Positions 53,890 to 62,794 are shown, counted from the stretch's first letter. The stretch is 64,000 nucleotides of DNA from Tenggerimyces flavus (GCF_016907715.1 NZ_JAFBCM010000001.1:1798001-1862000), one strand, 5' to 3'. Numbers and translations: made by a program. Notes: generated by a model not told the origin, from the letters alone.

Positions 53890-54993
53890 ATGAGGTTCCG
53901 CAGGATCGGCCTCGTCGCCCTGATCGCCTTGGCGGTCGCGGTGCCGGGTGTGGGGACGGCTCAGGCTGGCGGACACGGCCACGGGCACGGGCATGGCGAC
54001 GACGCGATCGTGATCGCTCACCGCGGCGCGAGCGGCTACCGGCCCGAGCACACGCTCGGCGCGTACAAGCTGGCGATCCAGCTGGGCGCGGCCTACATCG
54101 AGCCCGACGTCGTCTCGACCAGGGACGGCGTGCTGGTCGCGCGGCACGAGAACGAGATCTCGGGAACGACCGACGTCGCGGCGCACGGTGAGTTCGCTGG
54201 GCGCAAGACCACCAAGACGATCGACGGCGTCGCGGTCACCGGCTGGTTCACCGAGGACTTCACGCTGCGCGAGCTCAAGACGCTTCGCGCGAAGGAGCGG
54301 CTGCCCGATCTGCGGCCCTCGAACACTGCGTACGACGGCCGCTACGAGATCCCGACGTTGCAGGAGGTCATCGACCTCGTGAAGCGCGAGTCGAAGCGGC
54401 AGCACCGCAGGATCGGCATCGCGCCGGAGACCAAGCACCCGACGTACTTCGCCTCGATCGGGCTGCCGCTGGAGAAGCCGCTGATCCGCACGCTGCGCAA
54501 GAACGACCTCGACCACCGCCGGTCGAAGGTCGTGATCCAGTCGTTCGAGGTCTCGAACCTCAAGGCGCTCGCCAAGCAGACCGACGTGGAGCTCGCGCAG
54601 CTCGTCAACGCTTCCGGCGCGCCGTACGACTTCATCGCGAAGGGCGATCCGCGCACGTACGACGACCTCCTCACGCCGGCCGGGCTTCGTGAGCTGAGCC
54701 GGTACGCCGACTGGGTCGCGCCGGAGAAGGGCCGCATCATCCCGCGCGACGCGTCGGGCGGGATGATGCAGCCGACCGCGCTGGTCCGGAACGCCCACCG
54801 CGCCGGGCTGCGCGTGGTGACGTGGACGTTCCGAGCGGAGAACACGTTCCTGCCGGCGGACTTCCGCGACGGCACCGACCCGGCCGCGCACGGCGACCTC
54901 GTCGGGGAGATCCAGACGTACCTGCGGACCGGGCTGGACGCGATCTTCACCGACTTCCCGGACATCGGTGTCGAGGCGGTTTCGGACTTCTAG
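53890..54993 (+). CDS. Secreted glycerophosphodiester phosphodiesterase (GlpQ-like)
   Basis: 367 residues. The signal peptide (1-26) is cut before a G-H-G-H-G-H-G-H metal-binding stretch. The GDPD domain starts V-I-A-H-R-G-A-S-G-Y-R-P-E-H-T (His-Arg-Gly and Glu), then Y-I-E-P-D-V-V-S-T-R-D-G and ends near D-A-I-F-T-D-F-P-D. It hydrolyses glycerophosphodiesters to glycerol-3-phosphate outside the cell, aiding phosphate supply. AGGGAGAG precedes the ATG. Confidence 0.95.
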   Translation: MRFRRIGLVALIALAVAVPGVGTAQAGGHGHGHGHGDDAIVIAHRGASGYRPEHTLGAYKLAIQLGAAYIEPDVVSTRDGVLVARHENEISGTTDVAAHGEFAGRKTTKTIDGVAVTGWFTEDFTLRELKTLRAKERLPDLRPSNTAYDGRYEIPTLQEVIDLVKRESKRQHRRIGIAPETKHPTYFASIGLPLEKPLIRTLRKNDLDHRRSKVVIQSFEVSNLKALAKQTDVELAQLVNASGAPYDFIAKGDPRTYDDLLTPAGLRELSRYADWVAPEKGRIIPRDASGGMMQPTALVRNAHRAGLRVVTWTFRAENTFLPADFRDGTDPAAHGDLVGEIQTYLRTGLDAIFTDFPDIGVEAVSDF

Positions 54994-56149: not shown

Positions 56150-56335
56150 GGTGGCTTGTGCTCGTGCGGGCGGGGCTAGGGGTTGGGTCGGTGCCCTTCC
56201 TCGGCGCGACGGACCTCGGCGGCGATGGTGGCTGAGCACCGTTTGTCCACAGCTTTCCGCGACTTTGCCCACCGAATCGGGGTTGGGGACCGTGTTGCCA
56301 CGTTGGAGAACCCCGGTTCGGTGGGTGAAGTGCGC
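56150..56335. repeat. Direct repeat unit B containing a hairpin
   Basis: About 185 bases. The hairpin arms 56268-56284 and 56309-56325 match in 16 of 17 positions. Bases 56271-56318 are identical to 56745-56792 in unit C. Confidence 0.8.
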
Positions 56336-56619: not shown

Positions 56620-56809
56620 GGTGGCCTGCTCTCGTGTGGGCGGAGTGAGGGGTGGGCCGGTGGCCTGCCCAGCGCGACGGACATCTGCGGTCGGCGGCGA
56701 TGGTCGAGCATCGTGGCTGTCCACAGTTTTCCGCGACTTTGCCGACCGAATCGGGGTTGGGGACCGTGTTGCCACGTTGGAGAACCCCGGTTGGGTGGGT
56801 GAAGTGCGG
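56620..56809. repeat. Direct repeat unit C containing a decayed hairpin
   Basis: It has the same order as unit B, displaced by about 470 bases. Its hairpin arms (56742-56758, 56783-56799) pair in only 14 of 17 positions. Confidence 0.75.
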
Positions 56810-56963: not shown

Positions 56964-57398
56964 ATGAAGTGGTCAGATCTGGTCGGGGTACGCGTCGAGC
57001 TCCCCAGCCTGATAGCCGGCGTCCCGCCCGCAGCGACGAAGGCGCCGCGTGGCGCTAAGGAGAACCCGCTCTTCACGACCACCGAGGAGAACGGCACCAG
57101 CAACGCGACCGAGACGGTGAGCAGCCTCCTCACCGTGCAGTCGCTGGTCAACCTCACCTTCTCCACCACCGTGATCACCCTGCTCTGGAAGCTCATCCAG
57201 CGCCTCTTCGGCACCGGCGCCGGCGAGTGGGTGCCGCTGTTGCTCTGCTTCACGTTCGTCGCCGTCTCGTGGGTCGCCAGCTACGCGACCAAGCCCACGA
57301 CGAACGGCACCAAGGTCGTCTCCGGCTTCGTCGCGATCGTCACCGGCCTCGTCCTCACCGCCACTGTGCTCGGCATCAACGCCGCGATCCTCAGCTAG
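56964..57398 (+). CDS. Small membrane protein of unknown function
   Basis: 144 residues with a polar N-terminus (about 60 residues) and three hydrophobic helices (V-N-L-T-F-S-T-T-V-I-T-L-L-W; W-V-P-L-L-L-C-F-T-F-V-A-V-S-W-V; V-V-S-G-F-V-A-I-V-T-G-L-V-L). GGAGG lies eight bases before ATG 56964. The last eight bases overlap the convergent kinase-like gene. No family recognised. It may belong functionally with the membrane kinase/patatin operon. Confidence 0.65.
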   Translation: MKWSDLVGVRVELPSLIAGVPPAATKAPRGAKENPLFTTTEENGTSNATETVSSLLTVQSLVNLTFSTTVITLLWKLIQRLFGTGAGEWVPLLLCFTFVAVSWVASYATKPTTNGTKVVSGFVAIVTGLVLTATVLGINAAILS

Positions 57399-59652
57399 GC
57401 AAGGCGGAACGGACAAGCCGCAGCCGCTCCGCCGTCACGCTGGCTCGCGCAAGGCCGGCCCGGATCGGCGGTCCCTGGCGGCCGCACTTGACCAGGTACA
57501 GCTGCACGACGTTCAGGAACGTGATCACGACGACGTAGAACATCGCGTCCCGCAGCACTCCCAGATACAGCAGGATGCCGACCGCCCACAGGATCACCGC
57601 GTACAGCAGGTTGCCCGGGATCCAGGACGCGAACAAGGCCAAGCCAGGCACCTGCGCGGGCACCGTCGAGAGGCCGTCCGCACGCGCCTTCGCCAACACC
57701 GTAAGGGCGAACGACGACGTCAGCCAGTTGATCGCCGTCACCACGGTCATCCCGATCGCGGTCAGCAACAGCCACAGCCGCGGCTGGACGAGCAGCCCCG
57801 CGAGCGTCAACAGCGACAGCGCGAACGCCGGCACGCGCATGGCGACCTCGGCCACCATGCCGTACCAGGACAGCGCGCTCGAACCCCATCGCAGCGGCCA
57901 CGGCGTCACGCTCGCGAACAAGCTCTGGTAGTACTTCACGCCCACCAGCGTCATGCTCAGCGCCAGGATGCCGAGCGCGACCGGCGCGATCCCCTCCGGA
58001 ATGGCGTAGCCGGGCGCCCGCAGCTGGTCGATGATCGGGAACACGTCCGGAGCAGCGCCGGACAGCCGCTGCAGCGCGACCACGATCAGGTTGTCCCAGG
58101 ACAGCCCGGCGCTGCGGTACGTCCACATCAGCACCAGCACCGAGCACAGTCCCCAGGTCAGCGTGGCGAGCGTGGACCAGACGAGCAGCCGACGTACGCC
58201 GAAGCTGCGCGTCGGGTCGCGCCAGAGTCCCTGCGAACGGCGCTTGCGCCACAGTCGCAGCTGCCGGCCGAGCGCACCGGACAGCGGCGTGAACAGGTCG
58301 GCCATGCCGCGCCACCAGCTCACGCCGTGCGGGTTCGCGCCCTCGGACTTCGCCGCAGCGACAGCGTCGAGCTCCTCGAGAAAGTCCTGGCGCAGGCTCT
58401 CGTACGTGGAATCCGACGGCCGGAAGATCAGCAGTCGCCGAGCCGGATCGCGGTCGATCAGGTCCTCGATGAACCGGGCCAATAGTGGCGCCTCGGCGTA
58501 GAACACGTCGGGCACGGTGCCGTCGCTCGACAACCGGCCGCAGCCGAGCAGGATCAGCAGCTGGCCGAGCGAGTACAGGTCGCCGGACGGTTTCCCGTGC
58601 GTACGTGAACGTTCCTCCACCGCGGCCCCGGGATCGACTTGCCGGCTGAGCGCCCGGATCTCCGGCGCGACGTACGCCGCGTCGGCGCCGTCCCGCCCGG
58701 GCAGGTTGTGCAGGTAGAGGAAGTTGACGCCGAGGTCGACCAGCCGGAGCCGCCGCGTCCCCTCCACCTCGACGACCAGGATGTTGCTCGGCGAGAGGTC
58801 GCCATGCTCGAGCTCGCAGGCCTCCAGGTCGGCGAGCGCGCTGAACAGCTCGTCGCCGATCGTGCGCAGCCGTGCGAGGTCGAGCCGCGCCTTGCCGACG
58901 TTCGCCGGTCCGTTCGCCTGCGCGGCCAGCAGCTCGGCCAGGGTCTGACCGTCGATGAAGTCCATCAGCAGCCAGCTGTCCGAGCTCGCCCACACGCCGA
59001 CCAGGTGGTCGGCCTCGACGTCGAGCGGCAGCTCGTACGTCGTCGCATAGCCCTTGGTCGCGCGGGCGATCGTCGGGATCCGCAGGAACGGGTAGACGAT
59101 GCACTTCAGCGCGAGCGGCTTCAGCTCGCCCGCCCTGCGCTCGGTGGGCATGCCGCGGAGCAGGAACGACGTCGTGCCATGCCGGTGGAACGTGAGACTG
59201 CGGACCTTGATCGCGTCCCACTCGGCGTTGGGTTCCGCCGGCGCGTACAGCTCCCGCAGCGCGTCCTGGACGTCGGGATCCTTGACGAGCCGCTCGCACA
59301 GGAGAGTGCAGTCGTGATCGGGTCCCTCGTCGGCCCAGGGCGAGCGCTGTCGTTCGGAATGCCGGAGCGCGAGCAACGTCAACAGGAGCAGGCCGGCGAA
59401 CCCGTTCAGCGACCCGAGCTCGCCCCGCTCCCGGTCGGCGAGCCGGGCGCGCCAGCCAGTCAGCGCGGTGATCACGCGGTCCCAGGGCAGCTCGAGCTGG
59501 GCGGTGAACGTGCCGCTGTCCGGCGGGATGCCGAGCAGGACGTCACGCCACCCCTCGACGTTCCACTTGCGGGCCAGCTGGTCGAGCTCGTGGTCGCGTT
59601 CGTCGAGGACGGCGGGTACGACGCCGACGAGCGTGCGCAGGTCGGCCGTCAT
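57391..59652 (-). CDS. Protein-kinase-like protein with a polytopic membrane C-terminus
   Basis: 753 residues. After an N-terminal helical region (about 1-150) a kinase-like domain follows: L-A-L-K-C-I near 190 (possible ATP Lys), L-E-H-G-D-L-S-P-S-N-I-L near 282-293 (catalytic loop H-G-D-x-x-x-x-N) and V-D-L-G-V-N-F near 305 (D-L-G in place of D-F-G). No Gly-rich loop is obvious. About seven TM helices fill residues 480-735. It may be an atypical kinase or pseudokinase that signals at the membrane. ATGA overlap couples it to the upstream patatin gene. Confidence 0.75.
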   Translation of the reverse strand: MTADLRTLVGVVPAVLDERDHELDQLARKWNVEGWRDVLLGIPPDSGTFTAQLELPWDRVITALTGWRARLADRERGELGSLNGFAGLLLLTLLALRHSERQRSPWADEGPDHDCTLLCERLVKDPDVQDALRELYAPAEPNAEWDAIKVRSLTFHRHGTTSFLLRGMPTERRAGELKPLALKCIVYPFLRIPTIARATKGYATTYELPLDVEADHLVGVWASSDSWLLMDFIDGQTLAELLAAQANGPANVGKARLDLARLRTIGDELFSALADLEACELEHGDLSPSNILVVEVEGTRRLRLVDLGVNFLYLHNLPGRDGADAAYVAPEIRALSRQVDPGAAVEERSRTHGKPSGDLYSLGQLLILLGCGRLSSDGTVPDVFYAEAPLLARFIEDLIDRDPARRLLIFRPSDSTYESLRQDFLEELDAVAAAKSEGANPHGVSWWRGMADLFTPLSGALGRQLRLWRKRRSQGLWRDPTRSFGVRRLLVWSTLATLTWGLCSVLVLMWTYRSAGLSWDNLIVVALQRLSGAAPDVFPIIDQLRAPGYAIPEGIAPVALGILALSMTLVGVKYYQSLFASVTPWPLRWGSSALSWYGMVAEVAMRVPAFALSLLTLAGLLVQPRLWLLLTAIGMTVVTAINWLTSSFALTVLAKARADGLSTVPAQVPGLALFASWIPGNLLYAVILWAVGILLYLGVLRDAMFYVVVITFLNVVQLYLVKCGRQGPPIRAGLARASVTAERLRLVRSALPS

Positions 59653-60587
59653 GCGGCACCCCCGATGGCCTGAAGGGTGAGCTCGCGAGCGGCGGTGGCG
59701 GCGGCGATCAGCTTGGGGCGACTCTGCTCGAGCGCGTGAAGAGGTCGTGGCGGTGCCAGGTCGTACACGTACGGCGGTCCGTCCGGCGTGGTCGTCCGAC
59801 GACTCAGCACGGTGCGGTCCGCCACGTACTCCTCCAGTGCGTCGAGGTGCCGGGCGCCGAGGCTGGGACGCAGCCGCTCGAGCCCGCGGTGCTGGACGGA
59901 GCGCAGCAGCCGGCCGGGCAGCTGGTACGGGCCGTGCGGGCGGGTGCTGAGCGAGAGCACGTGCGTGCACCCGTCGAGCAGCGCGAGCCGGTACGGATGC
60001 ACGGTGAGCAGCGCGCCGTCGATCGCGCGCCGGCCGCGGAACGTCGCCGTCCCACGCACGGCGAGCGGCAGCCACGACGACGCCCGCAGCGCCGCGACCA
60101 GGTCGGCCCGGTCCTGGAACGTCGACACTGCTTCGGTCCGGAGCTCGTCGACGAGCGTGACCGCCACGGTGAGCGGCACCTTCGAGTCCAGCACCGCGTC
60201 AGCGTTCAGGGGCACAGCTTGGGAGATGACGTACGAGAACGCGTAGTCCAGCCCAATGAGAGAACCGGTGAGCGCGCGGAACGGGTCGATGAACCGGCGG
60301 TCGGTGAGGTGCTCCCAGTAGATCGCGAGCTGCTTCCAGTTGTCGCCGGCGTAGGAGTACGCGCCGTTGAGCGCGCCGGAGGACGAGCCGTACAAGCCGT
60401 CGAACGCGTGCCCCAGCCCGAGGTCCTCGAGCGCGGCGAGCATGCCGCCGGAGATCACGCCGCGCATGCCGCCGCCCTGGATCGCGAGGCCGAGCCGGTG
60501 CTGGTCGTGCCGGGCGCCGGGCCGGTCCTGCGCCTCGAGTCGGGCGCGCAACAGGGCGAGGACTGGGTGCCCCCGCTGTTCGCCCAT
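59649..60587 (-). CDS. Patatin-like phospholipase
   Basis: 312 residues, no signal peptide or TM helix. The oxyanion loop is I-Q-G-G-G-M-R-G (38-43). The nucleophile elbow is Y-G-S-S-S-G-A (G67-x-S69-x-G71). The catalytic Asp is in A-I-D-G-A near 189 (D-G-A rather than D-G-G). Such enzymes hydrolyse membrane lipids. GGAGACA precedes ATG 60587. It is the first gene of a two-gene operon with the membrane kinase-like protein, which starts inside its stop codon. Confidence 0.9.
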   Translation of the reverse strand: MGEQRGHPVLALLRARLEAQDRPGARHDQHRLGLAIQGGGMRGVISGGMLAALEDLGLGHAFDGLYGSSSGALNGAYSYAGDNWKQLAIYWEHLTDRRFIDPFRALTGSLIGLDYAFSYVISQAVPLNADAVLDSKVPLTVAVTLVDELRTEAVSTFQDRADLVAALRASSWLPLAVRGTATFRGRRAIDGALLTVHPYRLALLDGCTHVLSLSTRPHGPYQLPGRLLRSVQHRGLERLRPSLGARHLDALEEYVADRTVLSRRTTTPDGPPYVYDLAPPRPLHALEQSRPKLIAAATAARELTLQAIGGAA

Positions 60588-60700: not shown

Positions 60701-62131
60701 CTACGCGGTCGGATCCGTCACGGCCGACGCCGGAGAGAGCCTCAGGCTAAGCGCGTACTGGTCGTTCCTCCTTCCAGGCAAGGAGATCCGCGTACCCTGT
60801 GGCGAGCTCTCCCAGCGCAGCGTGCCGTCGCCGCCGAGCAGCTCGACCTTGGCGTGGTCGGCGAGCTTGACGTCGAGATCGACCGTGTTGCCCTGCGGCG
60901 CACCGAGCACGATCGCGTTCACGGCGTCCTTGCTTCTGGTGTAGCGGACGTCGTGTCCGTCGGTGGTAAGGCCCTTGGCGCGCTTCCAGTACGTGGTGCC
61001 GTAGATCGCCCGGCCGTTGTCCTCCAGCCACGTGCCAAGGTCGCGGAGCCGGCGTTCTTGCTCGCGCGGGAGGTGGCCGGAGCCCGTGGGACCCACGTTC
61101 AGCAGCAGGTTGCCGCCCTGCGAGACGACGTCCACGAGCAGGTGGACGAGCTGCTCGCTGGTGAGGAGCTCGCGTCGGTCTCCAGCCGGTTGTAGCCGAA
61201 CGACGTGCCGATGCGCCGGCTTCCTTCCAGGGTTGGAAGCCGTAGTCGCTCCACAGACTTTGACTGAAACCCTCGAGCCACCTGTCGGCGTCGCCAGGCC
61301 GGTGCCGGACGCTCACCGCGCTCTCCGTCTGGCGTGGCTTCCGCCGGTGATCCTTATTTAGAGGACGCTTGGCTGATAGCGGTCGATCAGCTCCTGCCAA
61401 TGCTTGCCTGTGTAGTCGAGGTCGACGCTGACCAGCGCCGCGGCGAACGACTCGTTGTCGACGATCGGAAGACCGCCGAACGTCCAGTCCATCCCTGTGC
61501 TGTAGTACGTGCCGAACCGCATGCCCTTGCGCCGGACCGCCGTGGCGAACTCGCCGAGGACGTCGCGCTTGGCCTGCCAGTTTCGCTTGTGTGGGTTGGG
61601 GTTCTTGCTCGGCCAGAGCAGGAACCCGTCCTCGGTCTTCGTGGTGACCACGACGTACTTCGCGCCCGACTTGGCGAACAGGTCCGCCCACGGGCGCGGA
61701 TTCCAACCGGCGAGCGAACGGTCGCGGAACTGCGCCACGAAGTCGTCGTAGCTCGTGCCGGGGTAGCGCTCGCGGTGGAAGCGCGCGGTCTCGCTGCCGG
61801 GAACGTTCATCGTGTTCTGGTACATCTCCGCGTACGGCAACAGCCGCCACTGCTGTTCCTGGCGCCACTTCGGCGCGTCGGGGCTGAGCGCGGCGTCGAG
61901 GTCGGCAGTGTGGACCGGCGCGTACGCGGGGATGGCCGCCGCGTTCCAGTGCACGAAGATGCCGAACTTGTCCTGGTCGAACCACGCCGGCGGCGCGTTC
62001 GCGCTCTTCGTGGCGGCATGTGCCTGGCTCTGCCCGGCGAGCGCGAGGCCGACCGTTCCGGCAGCTGTCGCACGCAGGAACGTGCGGCGGCTGGAGCCCT
62101 GACTGGCGGGCTGGTCCTGGGTGTGGAACAT
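60701..62131 (-). pseudogene. Glycoside hydrolase family 29 (alpha-L-fucosidase) pseudogene
   Basis: The 5' part (61358-62131, ATG after GGGGGAGA) has a twin-arginine signal (S-S-R-R-T-F-L-R) and GH29 motifs F-G-I-F-V-H-W, W-A-D-L-F-A-K-S-G-A-K-Y-V-V and T-T-K-T-E-D-G-F. It stops with TAA right after Y-Q-P-S-V-L where W-N-D is expected. Homology goes on in other frames: D-Y-G-F-Q-P-W, then R-I-G-T-S-F-G-Y-N-R after a shift near 61220, then V-V-S-Q-G-G-N-L-L-L-N-V-G-P after a one-base loss near 61172. At least three lesions make it non-functional, unless sequencing errors are present. Confidence 0.8.
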
Positions 62132-62290
62132 GGTCTCCCCCGTTTCATCGCGTCCTTGCTTGCTGATGAGGGACGCTACTGACGGCGAGGGCTGGCGGAC
62201 ATCGGCCAGACGGAGTGGTGCCACCCAACGAACGTCGGGTCCTTCGGTCTTGGGGTACCACCGAAAGTCAGTGGTGGAAGGATGATCGGC

Positions 62291-62794
62291 ATGACGATCC
62301 ACGGCGACCACCCCTTTTTGCCGCCGGAGTCGGAACGATCGGCGGTACGGCGGTTCCGCGGCCGGCTGGCGTCGCCGGTGGCGCTGTGGACGTCGGAGTC
62401 GGCGGGCCTGCCGGTGACCTCGATGCTGGTGGCGGACGGCCAGCCGGCGTTGGCGATCGGCCTGGTGGACGAGGACTCGCTGCTGTGGGCGGCGATCCAG
62501 CGGACGTCCACGTTCGCGATCTCTCTGCTGTCGTGGTCGCATCGCGGCCTGGCGGAGGCGTTCGCGGAGACCATGCCCGCGCCCGGTGGGCCGTTCCGGC
62601 TGACGGAGTGGAACGCGACGGAGTGGGGCCTGGTGCCGTCGGGAGTCACCAGCTGGGCCGGCTGCCGGCTGCTGGACTCGCGCAGCTCAGGCTGGGCGAT
62701 CGAGATCCGCGCGACGCTGGAGCACGTCGAGGTCGGTGACGATCCCGCCCCGTTGCTCCACCAGCGGGGCCGCTACCTCACGCTCCCGGAGTAG
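62291..62794 (+). CDS. Flavin-reductase-like (FMN-binding split-barrel) protein
   Basis: 167 residues. The order F-R-G-R-L-A-S-P-V-A-L-W-T, G-L-P-V-T-S-M-L-V-A-D-G, F-A-I-S-L-L near 80 and L-A-E-A-F-A near 95 match the flavin reductase/PNPOx-like FMN-binding fold. GGAAGG is nine bases before ATG 62291, so this is preferred to ATG 62282. Partner enzyme and substrate are unknown. Confidence 0.8.
   Translation: MTIHGDHPFLPPESERSAVRRFRGRLASPVALWTSESAGLPVTSMLVADGQPALAIGLVDEDSLLWAAIQRTSTFAISLLSWSHRGLAEAFAETMPAPGGPFRLTEWNATEWGLVPSGVTSWAGCRLLDSRSSGWAIEIRATLEHVEVGDDPAPLLHQRGRYLTLPE

Follow-up and report, generated by a model that had tools for sequence, protein, structure and literature searches.

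Why should the gene for a soluble phospholipase run directly into the gene for a membrane-embedded kinase? The question is raised by a locus of Tenggerimyces flavus, an actinobacterium with a complete genome of 8.5 Mb that belongs to the same family as Actinopolymorpha (Actinopolymorpha alba is locus L037 in our numbering). The stretch that we analysed – hereafter the window – comprises 64,000 nucleotides (GCF_016907715.1, NZ_JAFBCM010000001.1:1798001-1862000). On its minus strand a patatin-like phospholipase gene (59649-60587, encoding a cytosolic protein of 312 amino acids) is followed by a gene for a 753-residue protein that joins a kinase domain to several membrane helices (57391-59652). 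The patatin stop codon and the kinase start codon overlap in an ATGA sequence (59649-59652), an arrangement indicative of translational coupling. A preliminary description had reported this pair, and we confirmed it, with its coordinates, the length of the kinase protein and the ATGA overlap. In all 31 other pairs with an upstream patatin, candidate kinase start codons fall 1-98 nt within the end of the patatin gene. We consider it fairly probable that the pair constitutes a conserved lipid-signalling module, in which a membrane kinase controls the co-translated phospholipase and has other targets too.

Patatins are serine acyl hydrolases that act on membrane lipids. The window protein scored 62.2 bits against PF01734 (curated cut-off 27.7), and its AlphaFold model (predicted local distance difference test [pLDDT] 90.9, predicted template modelling score [pTM] 0.92) is closest among solved folds to PlpD, CapE and CapV. 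We identified all the motifs expected of the family – a GGGxRG loop, a GxSxG nucleophile and the D-G/A aspartate of the dyad. The oxyanion-hole motif G-G-G-M-R-G occupies residues 38-43 (60459-60476), with G38, G39, G40, R42 and G43 invariant among 33 orthologs, and both the predicted nucleophile Ser69 (60381-60383) and the predicted catalytic Asp190 of a D-G motif (60018-60020) are invariant in 33 of 33. The soluble patatin with intact nucleophile motif and oxyanion loop that had been proposed is thus borne out, and the protein is predicted to be an active lipid acyl hydrolase.

The AlphaFold model of the kinase-membrane protein (pLDDT 87.2, pTM 0.89) begins with an all-helical domain (residues 1-146, 59215-59652, from the secondary structure of the model) that includes one hydrophobic helix according to both hydropathy and model. 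A Hanks-type kinase domain follows (residues about 147-440, 58333-59214), and then about six membrane helices (residues 486-725, 57478-58197, from hydropathy and model helices), the final helix of the model spanning residues 727-750. The earlier count of about seven membrane helices therefore needs adjustment to about six at the C-terminus, plus the hydrophobic helix of the N-terminal domain. Within the membrane region, R606, W627, W677, Y684, D702, Y706 and N714 are invariant across orthologs. Given a topology without signal sequence, the kinase domain is expected on the cytosolic side, and the patatin likewise.

Hanks kinases phosphorylate proteins. The window kinase matches PF00069 at 30.3 bits, just short of the 31.7 cut-off, and a divergent ortholog (locus L112) reaches 52.9 bits. 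Its predicted structure has the bilobal kinase fold that the preliminary description presupposed, resembling PknI, PknA and PknB (Foldseek probability 1.00 and target-normalised template modelling score [TMt] up to 0.73 for PknI). The catalytic motifs are complete: the ATP-anchoring beta-3 lysine, Lys183, in A-L-K (59104-59106), the catalytic loop H-G-D-L-S-P-S-N (residues 283-290, 58783-58806), the metal-binding D-L-G (residues 306-308, 58729-58737) and an invariant A-P-E (residues 329-331, 58660-58668). K183, H283, D285, N290, D306 and G308 are invariant in 42 of 42 orthologs, which rules out a pseudokinase. In the place of a GxGxxG nucleotide loop stands F-H-R-H-G-T-T-S (residues 155-162, 59167-59190), conserved as FHRHG(T/S)TS with F155, H156, R157, G159, T161 and S162 invariant among 38 sequences, and the alpha-C region of the orthologs contains no conserved glutamate. 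The label ‘atypical kinase’ and the lack of a clear glycine loop noted earlier thus fit the nucleotide loop and the alpha-C region but not the catalytic core. Since catalytic residues are invariant among the orthologs of each protein, both patatin and kinase are predicted to be active.

To gauge how widely the pairing is conserved, we scanned 84,980 species genomes with two kinase motifs as the only seeds, a design that recovers near relatives. The scan returned 38 kinase loci from genera including Streptomyces, Glycomyces, Microlunatus, Actinocatenispora, Saccharothrix, Actinophytocola, Actinocrispum, Paractinoplanes and Promicromonospora, among others. A patatin adjoins the kinase in 32 of these loci – directly upstream on the same strand in 31, and directly downstream in one (Paractinoplanes, locus L062). 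Because the presence of a patatin was no selection criterion, this rate is not biased by it, and the pairing therefore exceeds chance, although the species are related and the loci not independent. Adding the window, three Actinopolymorpha genomes (G008, G011 and G015) and locus L112, the two genes are adjacent in 33 of 43 kinase loci, with the patatin directly upstream in 32; in relatives, then, adjacency is usual rather than rare.

Searches seeded with the patatin gave the same picture. Seven of 249 Streptomycetaceae genomes encode the patatin, and the kinase lies immediately downstream in all seven; in the window's own family, patatin and kinase are paired in 2/2. With the single kinase protein as query, the analysis also covered 121 Streptomycetaceae genomes. 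Kinase-paired patatins form a single clade (Shimodaira-Hasegawa-like approximate likelihood ratio test support of 99, in trees built by a quick method). Pairwise distances among patatins and among kinases are strongly correlated (Mantel r 0.915, with 0 of 2000 permutations as high), a correlation that owes part of its strength to the relatedness of the host species. No third gene is common to the loci, and we found no further conserved operon partner.

The association is asymmetric. To explain the kinases without a patatin, at least four to five changes on the kinase tree are needed, represented by Promicromonospora/Myceligenerans, Glycomyces (L063 and L070), Actinopolymorpha, the second kinase copy of Streptomyces SBT349 (L049) and the distant L112. 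Conversely, these searches returned no patatin of the paired clade without a kinase. In the three Actinopolymorpha genomes the deletion of the patatin is still visible. G008 retains the start of the patatin together with a C-terminal fragment of ~80 residues, which still overlaps the kinase start and is 68-70% identical to Streptomyces patatins; in G011 the kinase is fused in frame to the patatin start; and in G015 the kinase is still preceded by the start of the lost patatin and its ribosome-binding site. The stretch GGGGAGGTTCGACGGTGGGG is common to all three, and whole-genome searches of the three found no patatin of this family.

Kinases left without a patatin retain all catalytic residues and are under purifying selection, with ratios of nonsynonymous to synonymous substitution rates (dN/dS) of 0.13-0.25, compared with 0.26-0.38 for paired kinases. 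The repeated one-way loss thus suggests that the patatin depends on the kinase and that the kinase does other work too; its integrity after loss of the lipase points to further substrates. Two lone kinases have neighbours worth recording. In Streptomyces sp. SBT349, at L049:163-3739 (plus strand), the second kinase copy is preceded by two WD40 beta-propeller genes, a single case that is possibly another type of partner, and an Imm51 polymorphic-toxin immunity protein (L070:6745-7107, minus strand; 66 bits) is encoded near the lone kinase of Glycomyces algeriensis.

The two closest patatins outside the paired clade, both from one bacterial family, have a different neighbour. Each is divergently oriented from a gene for a NACHT ATPase (PF05729, about 32 bits, cut-off 26.7) with a long, glycine-rich, hydrophobic C-terminal half (L095:2674-4875, minus strand; L096:10031-12250, plus strand). 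Such NACHT ATPases with membrane segments are of a type used in bacterial immunity. Because the sister patatins adjoin a different protein, the lipase is not tied to kinases in general; as a single phylogenetic observation from two loci of one family, the arrangement is a hint that patatins of this type are controlled by nucleotide-binding proteins linked to the membrane. Patatins that are further removed stand alone, and the genes around them are ordinary.

How might the two proteins work together? We propose that the patatin would act as a cytosolic phospholipase, an acyl hydrolase, and that the kinase would be held in the cell membrane by its six or so helices with the catalytic domain in the cytosol. 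The overlapping genes would cause both proteins to be made together, so that the lipase would be born beside its membrane partner. The helical and membrane domains of the kinase may receive a membrane or cytosolic signal, upon which the kinase would phosphorylate the lipase, or hold it, and through this control determine when membrane lipids are cleaved. For its part, the lipase would depend on the kinase, and the kinase would also act on further substrates. The one-way loss is compatible with activation as well as with restraint; our slight preference is for activation upon a signal, given that deletion removes the lipase alone and the kinase stays useful. The suggestion in the preliminary description that the pair is a functional unit in membrane-lipid signalling draws good support, by inference.

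Several points weigh against this proposal. Kinases without a patatin imply another role for the kinase, and the patatin could be no more than an accessory, linked to it by expression alone. The reversed gene order in L062 removes start-site coupling, shared host ancestry accounts for some of the distance correlation, and the sister clade of the patatin has a non-kinase neighbour. Moreover, we infer physical contact, phosphorylation, the direction of control (activation or restraint), the signal and the lipid substrate.

Other explanations make different sense of the same observations. Abortive-infection defence, which had been raised from the outset, would have the kinase sense phage and unleash the patatin, with the membrane degraded and the cell dead before phage release. 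Such a role would suit a patatin with a fold closest to PlpD and to CapE and CapV, effectors of the cyclic oligonucleotide-based antiphage signalling system (CBASS), as it would the NACHT ATPase fused to membrane segments beside the sister patatin, the sparse distribution (7 of 249 Streptomycetaceae), the weak kinase matches to PADLOC defence kinases and the repeated deletion of the lipase. However, those kinase matches span the catalytic core only, and the neighbours are ordinary genes that differ between genera, such as inosine monophosphate dehydrogenase, luciferase-like monooxygenases and ATP-binding cassette transporters. When we scanned 148 neighbour proteins with defence models, we obtained a few scattered matches in a set dominated by housekeeping genes, and a defence island was rejected. 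Searches of viral contigs confirmed no relative of kinase or patatin, searches of plasmids yielded no kinase relative, and the phage and plasmid matches to the patatin are distant; a mobile or phage-borne module is rejected on these grounds. With no positive support from neighbourhoods, phages, plasmids or viral contigs, and the NACHT-adjacent sister patatin as one indirect hint, we regard defence as unlikely, and the interpretation in the preliminary description as partly supported overall.

If the patatin were instead toxic by default and the kinase merely its antidote, the toxin-first order of overlapping genes, the patatin deletion scars and the persistence of kinases alone, whereas no clade patatin was found without a kinase, would all be expected. 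Yet a kinase that served only as antidote should degenerate after loss of the toxin, and lone kinases are kept, catalytically intact and under selection, which disfavours a simple toxin-antidote pair; large polytopic kinases are also unlike known antitoxins, and the pair is not on plasmids. A toxin-antitoxin-like arrangement is therefore very unlikely in our judgement. The housekeeping surroundings, the reversed order in L062 and the persistence of kinases without a patatin would also suit co-expression without regulation, in which one promoter would serve a kinase and an enzyme of lipid remodelling that belong to a single envelope-stress or developmental programme and do not act on each other. 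Against this, the dependence of patatins in this clade on the kinase, near-obligate across many genera, together with overlapping starts, exceeds what shared expression usually needs, and we find this explanation distinctly improbable. A lipid-signalling module under kinase control remains the reading that we prefer.

A broader idea, which we hold to be doubtful, would embed the pair in an undescribed signalling or immunity module. Membrane-anchored nucleotide-using receptors – the polytopic Hanks kinase here, the NACHT-membrane protein in the sister lineage – would be interchangeable controllers of one patatin clade, and phosphorylation rather than a cyclic nucleotide would gate membrane destruction or remodelling.

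Comparison with known systems highlights what is particular to the pair. The window kinase shares its fold, complete K/HxD/N/DxG/APE motifs and membrane anchoring with the transmembrane Hanks kinases PknA, PknB and PknI. PknB-type kinases have a single membrane helix, whereas the window kinase has about six C-terminal ones, an N-terminal helical domain and FHRHG(T/S)TS in the nucleotide loop; it lacks a clear alpha-C glutamate, and its gene overlaps that of a lipase. The patatin resembles CapV and CapE in its fold, its Ser-Asp dyad and its nature as a cytosolic lipase of ~300 amino acids, but sequence matches are short and weak, and its partner is a kinase; no model of a cGAS/DncV-like nucleotidyltransferase matched any of the 148 neighbours (E 1e-15), the kinase being the only shared neighbour. 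CBASS was rejected on these membership grounds. PD-T4-6 and other single-gene defence kinases share the Ser/Thr kinase core and give weak profile matches (up to 29.5 bits for PD-T4-6, over ~90-150 residues of the core rather than the full length), but the window kinase adds a membrane domain, belongs to a two-gene unit and lies outside defence islands. The NACHT proteins of L095 and L096 stand beside patatins of the same superclade and likewise combine a cytosolic nucleotide-binding domain with many hydrophobic segments; in those loci the partner is an ATPase and the genes are divergent and non-overlapping. Escherichia coli YjjU belongs to the patatin family (24% identity), and the stand-alone actinobacterial patatins that we examined are, unlike the window patatin, unpaired with this kinase. 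Equivalog models also excluded a class IV lanthionine synthetase (34.7 versus 650 bits, over the kinase stretch only) and PglW of the bacteriophage exclusion (BREX) system (24.4 versus 990 bits).

Each protein family is known, but the pairing of a membrane Ser/Thr kinase with a dedicated lipase partner is apparently undescribed. In agreement with the earlier statement that no pathway was known for the pair, we found no published description among about 5.4 million open papers, a set outside which lie the subscription journals. A 2020 eLife survey of nucleoside triphosphate-dependent conflict systems notes, for other systems, active kinases joined to membrane helices; patatin is absent from its main text (PMC7159879).

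Orphan protein kinases are numerous in actinobacteria, as are patatins of unknown control, and two conserved, overlapping genes whose products have intact active sites offer a direct, testable link from kinase to lipase. If true, kinase control of the patatin would connect bacterial signalling to membrane lipids in a new way. Confirmation would establish a phosphorylation-gated phospholipase in bacteria and would make the NACHT-adjacent sister patatin a test case for lipase effectors that change controllers. The natural patatin deletions are ready controls for the kinase acting alone.

The remaining observations concern the surroundings of the pair in the window. A gene for a small three-helix membrane protein (144 amino acids, 56964-57398, plus strand) converges on the kinase gene, as had been noted, with an 8-nt tail-to-tail overlap. 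Because it has no Pfam match and none of the ortholog loci examined contains a homologue, it was rejected as a third component. Just upstream of it lie two copies of a 91-nt repeat (56244-56334 and 56718-56808, 97% identical), which has 54 matches in the genome at 70-100% identity; several places match on both strands at once, and the unit is therefore roughly palindromic, resembling a repetitive extragenic palindrome or bacterial interspersed mosaic element (REP/BIME). The gene immediately upstream of the patatin encodes an alpha-L-fucosidase (GH29) and is divided between two frames (60701-62542, minus strand). Its parts (62542-61358 and 61135-60701) match different portions of PF01120, representing either a frameshifted pseudogene or a sequencing error. 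Finally, ~5 kb from the pair and on the other strand, the window encodes a glycerophosphodiester phosphodiesterase (53890-54993, plus strand; PF03009, 141 bits), possibly a downstream step of phospholipid breakdown.

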